A stretch of DNA of 64,000 bases from Ianthella basta (taxonomy: Eukaryota; Porifera; Demospongiae; Verongiida; Ianthellidae): assembly GCA_964019415.1 (NCBI GenBank), contig OZ025871.1, forward strand, positions 8,048,713-8,112,712. The letters run 5' to 3'. Positions 33,951-48,422 of this stretch are shown here, one piece after another. The translations under genes and the position numbers were made by a program. Each line of letters begins with the position of its first letter. Position 1 is the first letter of the stretch. A model generated the notes under the pieces. It was not told where the DNA came from. It saw nothing but the letters and a program-made list of their open reading frames with translations, and did not search any database.

Positions 33951-34089
33951 CTGCCGAATAGACCAGATCATTATTAATGTGTTACCTGGTGGGCTACCTC
34001 AACAAGTGCAAACAGCCAAGGGGGGTGCCAGAAGGAAGTGCGGTTGTTCATCAAAGTCATTCTCCATTCAGTGGACCTATGAGATACCA
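33951..34089 (+). CDS. Gene C exon upstream of the 2A exon
   Basis: The acceptor TTTCGTAG and a consensus donor GTAAGT. Phase 2 to 0. Encodes CRIDQIIINVLPGGLPQQVQ, TAKGGARRKCGCSSKSF and SIQWTYEIP. Domain unknown. It joins in phase to the 2A exon. Confidence 0.55.
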
Positions 34090-34178: not shown

Positions 34179-34311
34179 ATGCTCTCCTCACAGGTCCTAC
34201 CCTTGTTGGCTCAGGCTGTATCTGTTGCATTTCTCAGCCTCCTGTTGATCTTGGCTGGAGATGTAGAGGTCAACCCTGGCCCTGGAAAGGGGAAGGAGAG
34301 GGCAGCATCAG
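34179..34311 (+). CDS. Gene C exon: signal-like hydrophobic segment plus 2A peptide
   Basis: Encodes VLPLLAQAVSVAFLSLLLIL, then AGDVEVNPGPGKGKERAAS; the donor is GTTTGT. GDVEVNPGP (34257-34283) matches the 2A consensus D(V/I)ExNPGP, at which ribosomes skip the Gly-Pro bond. Two starts are possible. An ATG at 34179 would give MLSSQ before the hydrophobic segment, like the 2A-type signal sequences known at the N-termini of sea-urchin NLR proteins. Alternatively the acceptor CTCCTCACAG (exon from 34194, phase 0) joins upstream exons, putting 2A inside a longer frame. It leaves phase 1 into the CARD exon. Confidence 0.8.
34260..34283 (+). promoter_or_regulatory. 2A-like ribosome-skipping motif DVEVNPG/P
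   Basis: Eight codons D-V-E-V-N-P-G-P, directly preceded by Gly and a leucine-rich helix as in active 2A sequences. Known mechanism: the Gly-Pro bond is not formed, the upstream product is released and translation continues from Pro. Activity here is inferred from sequence only. Confidence 0.8.
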
Positions 34312-35484: not shown

Positions 35485-35766
35485 TGTCAGTAATTCTCCA
35501 GAAATATGAAGATGAATTTTTTGAAGTCATTGATGCCAAATGCAATCTACTCCAATTGGTGCGCAAAGGTGTCATCACGCAAGACATTGAAAGACGTATC
35601 ACAGCCAGCAATGATGCTGATGGCAGAGAGATTTTGTTTAATCACCTCAAGCATCACAGCAATTTAGATGCTCTTAGGGAGTACTGTAAGGTCGCCTTTA
35701 AAACAACTGGCTATCCCAATGTGCAGAAACTGGCGGAAAAGATCATGTCTGAGCTGCCACAAGGAG
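35485..35766 (+). CDS. Gene C exon: CARD
   Basis: The acceptor CCATCTTTAG and the donor GTTGGT. Phase 1 to 1, about 94 codons. Six-helix death-fold pattern: VILQKYEDEFFEVID, CNLLQLVRKGVI, TQDIERRITASN, DGREILFNHLKHHS, LDALREYCKVAFKTTGYPNV and QKLAEKIMSEL. The GYPN before the last helix and the LVRKGVIT turn are typical of CARDs. Function: homotypic CARD-CARD recruitment of signalling partners. It directly follows the 2A exon, so after skipping it would be the N-terminal domain of the released protein, beginning with Pro. Confidence 0.85.
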
Positions 35767-42578: not shown

Positions 42579-45498
42579 TCACATGCAAGGGAAGTCCATG
42601 GTGGGGCTCCACAGGGCGGTTCCTTGGATGGCTGCTGAGTTGCCCCGCTGGATGGCCACTGAGAGTCGCTTGAGCAAGTACTGGTGAGACGACGGCTCAC
42701 CAGTAGCCTCCATCACCTTGCGAGTCAAGTCTCTAAGGAACGACTCAGATTCAGGTCCAATCACCCCAAGTGTCTCCACTGCAACAGGGACAAAGAAGTG
42801 GTTGCCGTCAAGGTTGGCGTACTTCTGCCTTTTGCGGTACTCGGCCTCAGCTGCGACTGCCCCTGCCTCCCGTGTGGCGAGTGGCTCGTAGGAGCTGGCA
42901 AAAGTGTCCGGACATATGCATGTTGCATCCCAAATCAGAATCTTCCCTCCCCTCCAAGGCAACACTGAGGCCCCATCTGGCCTTTTGCCATCGGAGCGGT
43001 AGAGACCAACAGGCTTAAGATGGGATGGGATCTGGGCTGCGTCAAGGGATCTCTTGACAAGGTCATTAACGGCTGCATGTCGAGAATGGCGGCCCTGGCT
43101 GTAACGGCAGCTGAGTCCATGGGTTCCTAGCTGATCTACCTCAGACCCACACTGAAGGCACTGATGTGGTCGGCAAAGAGGAAGGCCCGGATGCAAACCA
43201 ACAGCAATCCGAGTTGTCTCGTTGTCCATCCGCAGGCCCAGGGGTGCCACAGGGAGAGCGTTCAGCCATACACCCGCACCCCTGCTGGCCACGGCCAGTA
43301 GGCGGGCCCGTGTTCTGGGTTCCGAGGCTGTCTCAAATAGGGTCTCGTAGGAGGCTTCAATCACTGGTGCATCCCATGCCTTCTGTTGGTGTGCACTAGA
43401 TGGAGGGGGCGGAGGCTGCTCGTGTTTTTGGCTCCAATAGTTGAGGCCCAGCTTGATGTATGGTTCTGGGATGCCTTGCAGCCTTGGAGGGAGGATCCCC
43501 TGAATCAGTCCAGTGCAGCCAGCAGCAGAGGCCAAAAAGGCAGATGGTGCCAGCTGAACTGCACTCCTGATGCCAATACCTCCGGATCTCACTGGGAGCG
43601 AGGCTTGTGCCCATGCACTGTCATCAATGCGGGCATTGATGATGTCACCGAGGATGTCACGAAGTGCATCATCAAAAACCTTAAGTTGAGGTGAGGAGAA
43701 ACAGGGAGAGGAGCGTAGGATGTGCATAACTTTGGGGATGACAAAAGAGTGCCGTAACAGGAGCAATGCGTCCTGGGACTGGAGGAGTTGTAGTCTGTCC
43801 CCCATCAGTCTTAGCTTCTCAGCCTTCCTTTGGATGCTGTCATTCACTGACTTGCCTAATGGGGCTCCCAAGATCTCGGCCTCCTCCAACTTCACGGTCT
43901 GTAGGCCTGGTACTTCCTCCATCATTGCTTCCCTGATGCCTATATCATCACATATCAGTTCTGACTTATGGCGGTTCAACTGCAATCCTAACTTTGCTGC
44001 TTCACTCTCTACCCTCTGAAGGTCCTGCAGCACTTCATCTTTATGCCCTCCTAAAGTCCCATCATCTACGTAGAAGATCCGGAGTTCTGATTGTAGGCTC
44101 TTGACAAGGGGATGAATGGTTAGACAGAACAGGAAGCAACCCAAGGGGTCTCCCTGCTGTATCCCCTCTGATGAGTGAATGACCTGCCCACCGCAAAATA
44201 GATTGGATGGCTTCTCGTAGGCTGAGTGGATAAAGTGATACAGTTCTTGAGCTGACTCTCGCACCACATTTAACATACAATCTTGTCTGAGGGTGTTGAA
44301 CGCATTTTGGAAGTCTAGCTTTAGCAGTACGTGACTAGAAGGCAGGTCCTGAATGTACATTTGGGCCGCATGGACAGCTGCCTTGCACCCTTGTGGTATC
44401 CCACAACCCAGTTGAAGGGGTGCCATGGAGGATCCAATGGAGTGGAGGAAGCGGGAGCCCGCACATTTAGCGACCAGGCCACTGCTATGGGCCTGACCCC
44501 CCCCCCCCCCCCCCCCTCCCACCCTTCTTCCCCAAGAGCTATCAGATTAGCACCAAAGAAGAAGGGGCGGACAGCTGTGCGTGTCTTTCCCTGCAGAACT
44601 AAGTTGCTAAAGGCTGTGAGGGATTGTAGCAGTCTCACTCCCCCTCCCTCGGCAGATGGACTGGTTAGGTCTCGAAGGTGCTGTGGATGGATGCTGTCAA
44701 GCCCCCCTGCTGCTCCACAGGGGGAGGAACGAATAGTTTGGGCTACTTCCTCATCTGTGACTATGCAACAAGGGGTGGTCCCTTCTGGGGGTGGTGGGAC
44801 ACAGGAGTTGGGGTGTGGTGGTGGGTGTTTAGCCTTCAGAGCTGTTTTGTCTCCTCATTCAATGGTAGGATGGAGTCACTGGAGCAGGTGAGACGCACTG
44901 CCCCTTTGTAGTCCCCTTCTTCAAGCTTGGTCGAGACTCTGTGGGCCAGGGATCTAAGGGGGTCCTGCACTTGCCGTGGGTTCTGCTGGTTGATGGGTGC
45001 TGGAATCCGCAGGTCACTCTCATCTCTGAGCAAATGATTGACTTCAGTAGCTAAGCTCCTACGGTGACCCCCTCTCCTCCTGCTGGGCAAGCACAAGCAG
45101 CGGGAACCAAACCTGAATAATCGATCCCAAGAGCGATTGTCATTGCACCTTACAACTCCATCCAAGATGTCAGCCAGTTTGTTGGCGCCTTGCACGCGCG
45201 TGGGATCCTCTTCAGGACCTTAGTGGCTGGAGCTGGCTTGAGAGATGAATGTAAGGGGGTAGACGATTACTCCCTTCGTCCGCTGCTGGCTGTACTGAGG
45301 TAGGGGCACTGGCGCTTGGTGGAATCGCAGAGGCGGGAGGAAGGATAGCTGTGGGGCTCCTACCTGAACCAGCACAGCGATCGTTTAGTGGACCGTGACT
45401 CCCGCCTTAGTCACAGGCATTGATCGGCAGCACACAGGACAAGGGGCCCGCGCTGGTTCCCTCAGATCCCTCAGCTCTTCTACATTGTCTTTGTTCAT
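42579..45498 (-). pseudogene. Non-LTR retrotransposon: reverse transcriptase with C-terminal restriction-like endonuclease
   Basis: Minus strand. The N-terminus (ATG at 45498) reads MNKDNVEELRDLREPARAPC with a zinc-finger-like CPVCCRSMPV..GVTVH, then a stop. Further fragments are at 44836-45195. The main frame (to the stop at 42579) has RT motifs: LLKLDFQNAFNTL (motif A), SEGIQQGDPLGCFLF (motif B) and FYVDDGTLGG (catalytic YVDD, 44061-44072). These are followed by a CxxC..H..C knuckle (CLQCGSEVDQLGTHGLSC) and GKRPDGASVLPW..ILIWDATC, a PD-(D/E)xK-like endonuclease. This order (zinc finger, RT, knuckle, endonuclease) fits R2/NeSL/HERO-type elements. It is broken by frameshifts, one near RPIAV and one at a 20-C run. 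Confidence 0.85.
44497..44516. repeat. Poly-C tract (20 C)
   Basis: A homopolymer inside the RT frame, read as poly-Gly on the minus strand. A likely place for slippage or a sequencing-length error. Confidence 0.9.
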
Positions 45499-46771: not shown

Positions 46772-48422
46772 CAATTTTCCAAGAGAATGCAGGCTCATTA
46801 TGCAAAGATGAAGGTGGTGGATGACAAGTGGCGTAAAAGTCAGTCAATTGAATTTGTCAAATTGTCTTTATCTCGCTTTAAATTGGACTTTCAAGATGCA
46901 CAGAAAAAGTTTGTTGAAGCTATTTCTGATCCGGAGGGGGTTGACAATGTGTATACTGTGGTGAAGAATGCTAAAATCGCGTATGAGGACATTCCGACAA
47001 TGATAAAGGAGTGGAAGCTTGTTGTGATCAGTGGTGCTCCCGGTGTGGGTAAGAGCACACTGGCCAAGAAACTATGTAAAGACATGTCAATGAAGATGAG
47101 TGATCACGAATATAATTTGGTGCTGTTGGTGGAGCTGCGAGATTTGATTGCTCTCAAAGACCTCAATGAGTCTTTTGAACTGCACCATATGGTACAGTTA
47201 TTCTGCAATACAAAGGATAAGGCAGCTAGTATTGCTAAAGAGATGATAGCTAACAGTGGTAGAGGCACCCTTCTCATTCTTGATGGATATGATGAGCTTC
47301 TACAGGAACTGCGTAGGTCTCCTTTCTTCCTCAGTTTACTCATGCATTCTCCTAATTCCTCTCTACCTGAATGTGATGTAGTGTTGACGTCACGCTCCAT
47401 CGTTACAAGTCAAATTTACCAGGTCTTTGATAGTTCTGGCATTGCATGTAATTTTGTGAATGTTGAGGTGTTAGGGTTTACCAAAGGACAGATAACTCGC
47501 TATGCCCAACAGTACTTTAAAGAAGAAGGGAAGCCAGAATTGAAAGATTCATTTGCAGAGAGAATCAGTATGCTACCTCAGATTAGGAGTCTGTGTTCCA
47601 TCCCTATTGTTTTATCTATCATTTGTCGAGTGTACCTGAAACACAATGACCTACCATCTACATTATCAGCTGTCTATGAAAGGTTTGTAATAGACAAGCT
47701 TCTCATCAACTCTGTTATTGCGGGTAGGCCTGGATGTGTTCAGTCTCTGCTGGACCTACCTGATAAACATACATTTTACAGTCTTTGTGAAGTTGCATTT
47801 TTGCGAGTCAAGGAGCAGAAGGTAGTGTTTTTGATGGATGATGGCCAGATGGTGGGAATTTCTTCAGCATACTCTGACCGTGCTAATGGATGTGGGCTGC
47901 TAACAGCAAGACCGGTTAATGAGTTTGGTTTTGCAGTAGTTGCAGTTGACAGTTTCTACTTTATCCATTTGACAGTGCAGGAGTTCCTCAGTGCCATCCA
48001 CATCTCTAAATTGGACATTGCAGCTCAGAAGGAGATCTGGAGTGAGTACCTTGGACAGCCCCACATGGCCCAAGTATGGAAGTTCTTCTGTGGGATCACC
48101 AGACTAGAGAATTTTGAAGCTTTGCAGCTGAACTCAAAAGTTAGTGATAAAGAGGTCTTAGTACAGTCTCTCTTTGAGTCACAGAATAGTGCTGTGACTA
48201 AAGAGGCAATGCAGGCAGCTTTCGGTGACAGCCCAACAGTGAAACCGAGGAGTCCATACAGTACAATTGCCTATGGTTACTGTTTGCAGCAACACAAGAG
48301 CATGAAGAATCTCACCGTCAATTGTGCAAGAAGTGTGCGTATTCGCCTTGGCAACCTTCTCTCTCCTGTGCTTCAGACAGCTTCTGGTTTGCACTTGATA
48401 CTCTGTAACTGTCACCCTAAAG
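46772..48422 (+). CDS. Gene C exon: NACHT ATPase domain of an NLR-like receptor
   Basis: The acceptor TCTCCTTTCAG and the donor GTGAGC, phase 0 to 1, 550 codons in one exon. Counting from the Met at 46787: a helical lead (1-75), Walker A GAPGVGKST (83-91), Walker B LLILDGYDELL (about 160-170), a sensor-like VVLTSRS, the NLR signature VEVLGFTKGQITRYAQQYF, the winged-helix SIPIVLSIICRVYL and the late motif FYFIHLTVQEFLSAIH. All are hallmarks of NLR NACHT modules; the DGYDE form is specific to NACHT rather than plant NB-ARC. Role: ATP-dependent self-association of a cytosolic immune sensor. The CARD and 2A exons upstream and LRR exons downstream are phase-compatible. Confidence 0.95.

Follow-up and report, generated by a model that had tools for sequence, protein, structure and literature searches.

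Does a 2A (StopGo) core encoded directly ahead of a CARD exon split an NLR-type receptor from its leader during translation? The question is raised by a locus within a 64-kb stretch of Ianthella basta DNA (the whole stretch is called the window here), for which the first-pass annotation had described a leucine-rich hydrophobic segment ending in GDVEVNPGP. This segment is indeed encoded there (Table 1), and its full core is the only one on either strand of the window. The shuffled expectation for the core in the window, with two mismatches allowed, was 0.02. In the 209-Mb genome the DVExNPGP codon pattern had 307 matches, as opposed to none for the reversed pattern and none for NPAP, in which the Gly codon is exchanged for one encoding Ala; together with the shuffled expectation, these counts rule out a chance match for the window core. 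DVEVNPGP conforms in the translated frame to the class (D/G/C/N)(V/I)ExNPGP, with in-frame selection (see below). The lead-in ends in AG before the D and, when compared by eye with the available part of PMC12846837, matches the L-rich class known from viral StopGo sequences. The stretch AVSVAFLSLLLILAG before the core has a mean hydropathy of 2.54.

Table 1. Features of the 2A-CARD-NACHT locus, with positions in the window
Feature	Positions	Strand	Remarks
2A (StopGo) core GDVEVNPGP	34257-34283	+	break expected between G and the last P
Core part DVEVNPGP	34260-34283	+	preceded by LLILAG
Leader-2A exon	34194-34311	+	phase 0 in, phase 1 out; start probable
CARD exon	35485-35766	+	phase 1 in and out
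NACHT exon	46772-48422	+	open
Probable upstream coding exon	33951-34089	+	phase 0 with the 2A exon; 46 codons, basic

When the 2A exon and the CARD exon were joined, an open frame without a stop was obtained (AGDVEVNPGPGKGKERAASVSVILQKYEDEFF...), in agreement with the in-phase junction that had been proposed for them. The CARD exon gave no Pfam match. Its AlphaFold2 model (27 sequences) reached a mean pLDDT of 94.9 and displayed a split first helix, which we take to be typical of CARDs. Eight of the 10 best Foldseek neighbours of this model are CARD-containing entries, namely RIG-I, Apaf-1 and their complexes (TMq 0.65–0.79, the best Foldseek E being only 0.47), and the other two are designed proteins. 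The exon has a predicted CARD fold, and on this model the gene has the N-terminal CARD or DEATH domain that marks an NLR; the relative L023 carries a DEATH exon (PF00531, E = 2e-5). The NACHT exon has an open frame with splice sites, lies 12.5 kb downstream of the core and matches Pfam NACHT (PF05729) with E = 2e-18.

The remaining parts of the gene as first annotated fared less well. A linker exon between CARD and NACHT was not confirmed: no convincing one was seen in the window, where the candidates shared with the sister locus L085 were ambiguous, and the CARD exit in phase 1 and the NACHT entry in phase 0 are thus left unbridged. One linker exon, of 41 nt, was read by eye at L049. With regard to LRRs, Pfam detected none in two candidate exons and one further stretch, and a motif scan gave no clear result. 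The proposed CARD-NACHT-LRR receptor is borne out for its NACHT and, as a predicted fold, its CARD; for LRRs no Pfam match was obtained in the exons tested. Similarly, an NLR-type gene behind the 2A core is borne out by the CARD-NACHT order and by the array-wide linkage described below, though not as the complete gene that had been written down.

A tandem array of NACHT exons and 2A cores

A search with the NACHT exon of the window, in which 75 of 446 candidates were scored and which consequently gives lower bounds, placed at least 56 NACHT exons (the window's included) on a single contig, C4, between 3.97 and 8.32 Mb and all on the + strand. At least one stop was present in the matched stretch of 30 of these 56 matches, the last 30 query residues lying beyond the window's exon end; pseudogenes may thus be present among the units. 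When the leader exon was used as a DNA query, a search that does not depend on the core alone, 30 near-full-length array copies were obtained; the exact core was present in all 30, and no core-less array copy was found by this search. All but one of these copies (29/30) are followed on the same strand by a NACHT exon at a distance of 9.1–24.6 kb, compared with a mean of 9.5 and a maximum of 20 in 10,000 random draws. The array stretch also contains 35 DIETNPGP (T-type) sites. When these are considered together with the V-type cores, to which the window core belongs, 55 of the 56 array NACHT exons have a core upstream (within 40 kb and after the previous NACHT exon): 25 have V only, 24 T only, three T+V, two T+T, one T+T+V and one none. 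Altogether 57 of 65 core sites have a NACHT exon no more than 25 kb downstream (mean 20.5 and maximum 38 at random); the random controls for core-NACHT linkage leave the duplication of array copies unmodelled. Since the copies are duplicates, the counts show that the arrangement was kept and not that it originated repeatedly.

The CARD exons show the same arrangement. A search in which 150 of 652 candidates were scored, again giving lower bounds, identified at least 18 of them in the array; 17 of the 18 are preceded by a V-type core at no more than 6 kb, and for 16 of these a NACHT exon follows within 20 kb. In a second array, on contig C2, a core was found within 14 kb upstream of 26 of the 27 CARD exons but on the other side of only two of the 27, and 14 of the 15 NACHT exons had a core within 16 kb. 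Nearly every receptor gene found in the array is led by a 2A sequence, which suggests that the animal splits its receptors from their leader during translation.

T- and V-type core exons both lie upstream of the C4 NACHT exons at 5172081, 6141287, 6853851 and 7453715. Such T+V pairs may be alternative first exons or the leftovers of a lost unit.

On the basis of the observed sequence, exon phases, array linkage and core selection, we infer a transcript structure, a start codon, skipping with its efficiency and destinations of the products, and the reading that we hold to be rather probable is as follows. A predicted StopGo site separates a leader module from the CARD-NACHT receptor, and skipping would give a free receptor plus a minor fused form that could be routed to membranes. 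The leader module would consist of approximately 46 residues from the upstream exon followed by the Leu-rich hydrophobic stretch. Most ribosomes would skip the Gly-Pro bond and free the leader, and the cytosolic receptor would then begin with proline (PGKGKERAAS-CARD), while a minority would not skip, and their product would retain the hydrophobic leader and might reach membranes. The gene would belong to a tandem array of NLR-type units, and nearly all of the units found there share this design, with two leader types. Points against this reading are the 10 of 72 type II homologues without the standard core (see below), the stops in 30 of the 56 array NACHT matches, the one NACHT exon that has no core, the failure to find a linker exon in the window and the lack of an evident start codon behind the acceptor in the window copy. 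Dual targeting of the receptor is proposed here by analogy with the sea-urchin NLRs, as described in the available part of PMC4981915. Of the earlier suggestion that the 2A core is placed to release a CARD-NACHT receptor starting with proline, the placement is supported by the array linkage and the core selection, whereas the short N-terminal signal peptide beginning at ATG 34179 is not (see below).

Leader types and the start of the leader exon

Two types of leader exon were distinguished. The type I exon, which is the kind present in the window, follows an acceptor in phase 0 and continues an upstream exon. The type II exon has a frame running from MPISNEQWRVAVGLW to the hydrophobic stretch before the core, an MPIS-type leader that in the copies measured comprises 129–139 residues up to NPG. 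All 12 T-type sites that were read, out of the 35, are of type II. Given the upstream exon in type I and the 129–139 residues in type II, the released leader product probably exceeds a bare signal peptide in both types. On the reverse strand of L024, up to about position 1600, a third leader (MPISAQEWRVSVGLF...) stands before DVELNPGP and resembles the type II start.

Leaders of this size would also suit a small cellular polyprotein, in which the 2A core separates the receptor from a leader or partner peptide, both of them wanted products, with no dual targeting of the receptor. The first 32 residues of type II have a pN/pS of only 0.06 among six C1/C2 copies, and the upstream exon of the window may add 46 residues to the part before the break. 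However, the upstream part of 12 C4 type II copies is weakly constrained (pN/pS 0.63 for residues 1–32 and 0.77 for the middle) compared with the hydrophobic stretch (0.14), the fold predicted for the type II leader is of low confidence (pLDDT 54), and a hydrophobic stretch kept before the core suits a signal or an anchor as well. We consider this explanation doubtful.

The first-pass annotation had put the start of the leader exon at ATG 34179. If translation began there, the N terminus itself would consist of a short signal-2A peptide, in the style of the sea urchin. This ATG is in frame, AVSVAFLSLLLILAG has the mean hydropathy given above, and six of the eight C1/C2 type I exons that were read do possess an in-frame ATG within the exon (MLSPVV or MLAPVV). 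In the array, though, it reads ATG in 16 of 21 copies and is lost in the other five, whereas the adjoining ACAG acceptor at 34190-34193, in whose pyrimidine tract it sits, is kept in all 21. None of the 21 copies, the window copy included, has an in-frame Met after the acceptor, so the start codon lies upstream or is unusual. Six loci belong to the subfamily closest to the window; three of them lack a Met within the exon, and in the other three the in-exon Met stands no more than 14–17 residues ahead of the core. Together with the conservation of an in-frame upstream exon across subfamilies, these observations make a start at ATG 34179 improbable; the exon probably starts at 34194, and ATG 34179 would be intronic.

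The upstream exon is flanked by the acceptor TTTCGTAG and the donor GTAAGT, and no array copy (0 of 21) interrupts its frame. A homologous exon was present in 13 of the 14 related loci examined, always 154 nt long and open, with a pN/pS of 0.50 in frame, the two remaining frames giving 1.07 and 0.62. The C4 copies, a recent set, gave no coding signal for this exon (dN/dS 0.78 in frame against 0.67 and 0.99 in the other frames). What precedes the core is probably a longer, spliced stretch.

Selection on the core and cores elsewhere in the genome

Selection on the 2A exon was determined for 21 C4 copies, 17 of them distinct, consisting of the window and, as taken from the core lists, 20 of the 29 remaining V-type sites in the array. 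Changes at the three codon positions numbered 28/5/50, and dN/dS was 0.23 in frame as opposed to 1.15 and 3.49 out of frame. Within GDVEVNPGP there was no amino-acid change in any of these copies (dN 0, dS 0.106). A second set comprised 72 type II homologues chosen by whole-exon similarity, with the core not serving as a criterion; many may stem from the same or close species, and the 72 are consequently not independent. The motif [DGCN][VI]ExNPGP is kept in 62 of them, and the 10 that deviate have NPDP (twice), NPSP, NPNP, NPKP, NAGP, SPGP, NPGE, a DMET form and, in one case, no such region. Core entropy was highest at the free position x (1.78), intermediate at V (0.47) and G (0.50), and at most 0.11 at D, E, N and both P. 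This tolerance resembles that reported for viral StopGo in the available part of PMC12846837. The in-frame constraint, the retention of the core in most homologues and the variability of x are the marks of a selected StopGo site.

Homologues with a changed core include P0158, P0161, P0165, P0168, P0172, P0176 and P0184 (NAGP, SPGP, NPSP, NPNP, NPDP, NPKP). They could possibly be always-fused forms or decayed copies.

2A sequences reportedly occur in non-LTR retrotransposons. From the 307 places, 100 were listed, and 20 places on contig C1 were read at length. Two of these 20 have NACHT exons downstream (L025, and L023 with its start only), and a third, L020, was seen by eye to combine a CARD-like frame with a type II leader. 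Of the others, 16 resemble retroelements or fragments of them by eye, and the remaining place is L024. Eight of these 16 were tested, and the frame downstream of the core matched an endonuclease family in all eight, one (L010) just below the cut-off, while three also matched reverse transcriptase. Judging from these frames, some other cores in the genome are located in non-LTR retrotransposons. Other core places are short exons with a hydrophobic lead-in, followed by death-fold and NACHT exons where the downstream sequence was read. For the window core a retrotransposon frame was ruled out, as it is followed by the CARD and NACHT exons and by no endonuclease or reverse transcriptase in frame.

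Two mobile-element frames were seen elsewhere in the window. A reverse-transcriptase frame lies in the long intron at 42579-44854, on the − strand and thus opposite to the core (RVT_1, E = 2.2e-15); the sister locus L085 lacks the stretch from 42.3 to 46.7 kb, which suggests an insertion carried by some copies of the array. A hAT-type transposase frame occupies 1005-2780 on the − strand (Dimer_Tnp_hAT, E = 3.2e-19).

That the core is a mere relic, i.e. that a 2A exon was an ancient acquisition, perhaps of retrotransposon origin, and has since been carried along as the array duplicated, would fit the retrotransposon cores of the same genome (8/8 frames tested) and the duplicate nature of the array copies, but it is very improbable in view of the unchanged GDVEVNPGP at a dS of 0.106, the exact core in 30 of 30 leader copies and, in type II, a core that is kept in 62 of 72 homologues and varies most at its functionally free position.

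A broader claim can be attached to the preferred reading of a StopGo site between leader module and receptor, and we regard the case for and against it as evenly balanced: StopGo may be a standing part of the receptor architecture, in which practically every array unit would give two products, two leader classes, a spliced hydrophobic leader and the MPIS-type leader of 129–139 residues, would serve a single family of receptors, and copies without the core any longer (NPDP, NPSP, NPNP) would be natural forms that always stay fused. If this were true, cellular use of 2A would be routine and not rare in this lineage.

Relation to known 2A systems

In the available part of PMC12846837, StopGo is described as widespread among RNA viruses but seldom found in genes of cells, the sea-urchin NLRs being the cellular example discussed; one L-rich StopGo motif is also reported there to be active in reticulocyte lysate. 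According to the accessible text of PMC4981915, 2A-like sequences occur in about 35% (85/241) of the NLRs of Strongylocentrotus purpuratus, and a 26-residue N-terminal 2A form is found in 14 of 87 NCBI entries. The same source gives approximately 80% skipping in vitro for a sea-urchin NLR 2A leader, and a reporter carrying it was located in the cytoplasm but mainly in the Golgi once the site had been inactivated. 2A leaders on NLRs are therefore already known, the nearest precedent being the sea urchin. Among the matches listed in our search of open-licence papers, none reported a 2A-NLR from a lineage other than the sea urchin. Within the literature searched, three points are new: a receptor array in which nearly every member has a core, the existence of two leader types, and the evidence of selection.

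With its dozens of receptors, in which the core is retained although the leaders have drifted apart, the array amounts to a natural mutational series. It makes testable whether skipping decides the location of an immune receptor, and whether 2A entered receptor genes once or repeatedly, perhaps from retrotransposons of the same genome.

Sponge NLRs such as those of Dysidea avara (PMC12909245, available text) likewise form large families of NACHT proteins whose N-termini are CARD or DEATH domains; the main text of that paper contains neither 'ribosom-' nor 'signal peptide'. In the present DNA the NACHT, CARD and Death domains point to an animal, and a silicatein-like motif had 0 hits, a result that speaks neither for nor against a sponge. 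The 2A of non-LTR retrotransposons (Odon 2013, as cited in the accessible part of PMC11512398) has the same core and is present in this genome, but its downstream product is an endonuclease plus reverse transcriptase, in contrast to the CARD-NACHT protein here. The viral L-rich StopGo, so far as the available text of PMC12846837 describes it, also has the same core, with (A/S/C)G before the D, whereas the predicted site studied here belongs to a host receptor gene. The closest likeness is to the sea-urchin NLRs as presented in the accessible text of PMC4981915, which share the hydrophobic lead-in and a D(V/I)ExNPGP core ahead of death-fold and NACHT genes in a large family. There, 2A activity has been measured, while in the present array it is predicted. 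In the sea urchin the 2A sequence stands at the N terminus, whereas here the core exon probably lies behind a further coding exon, and two leader types are found. Finally, in contrast to the roughly 35% of NLRs in the sea urchin, the core is present at 55 of the 56 NACHT exons of one array.
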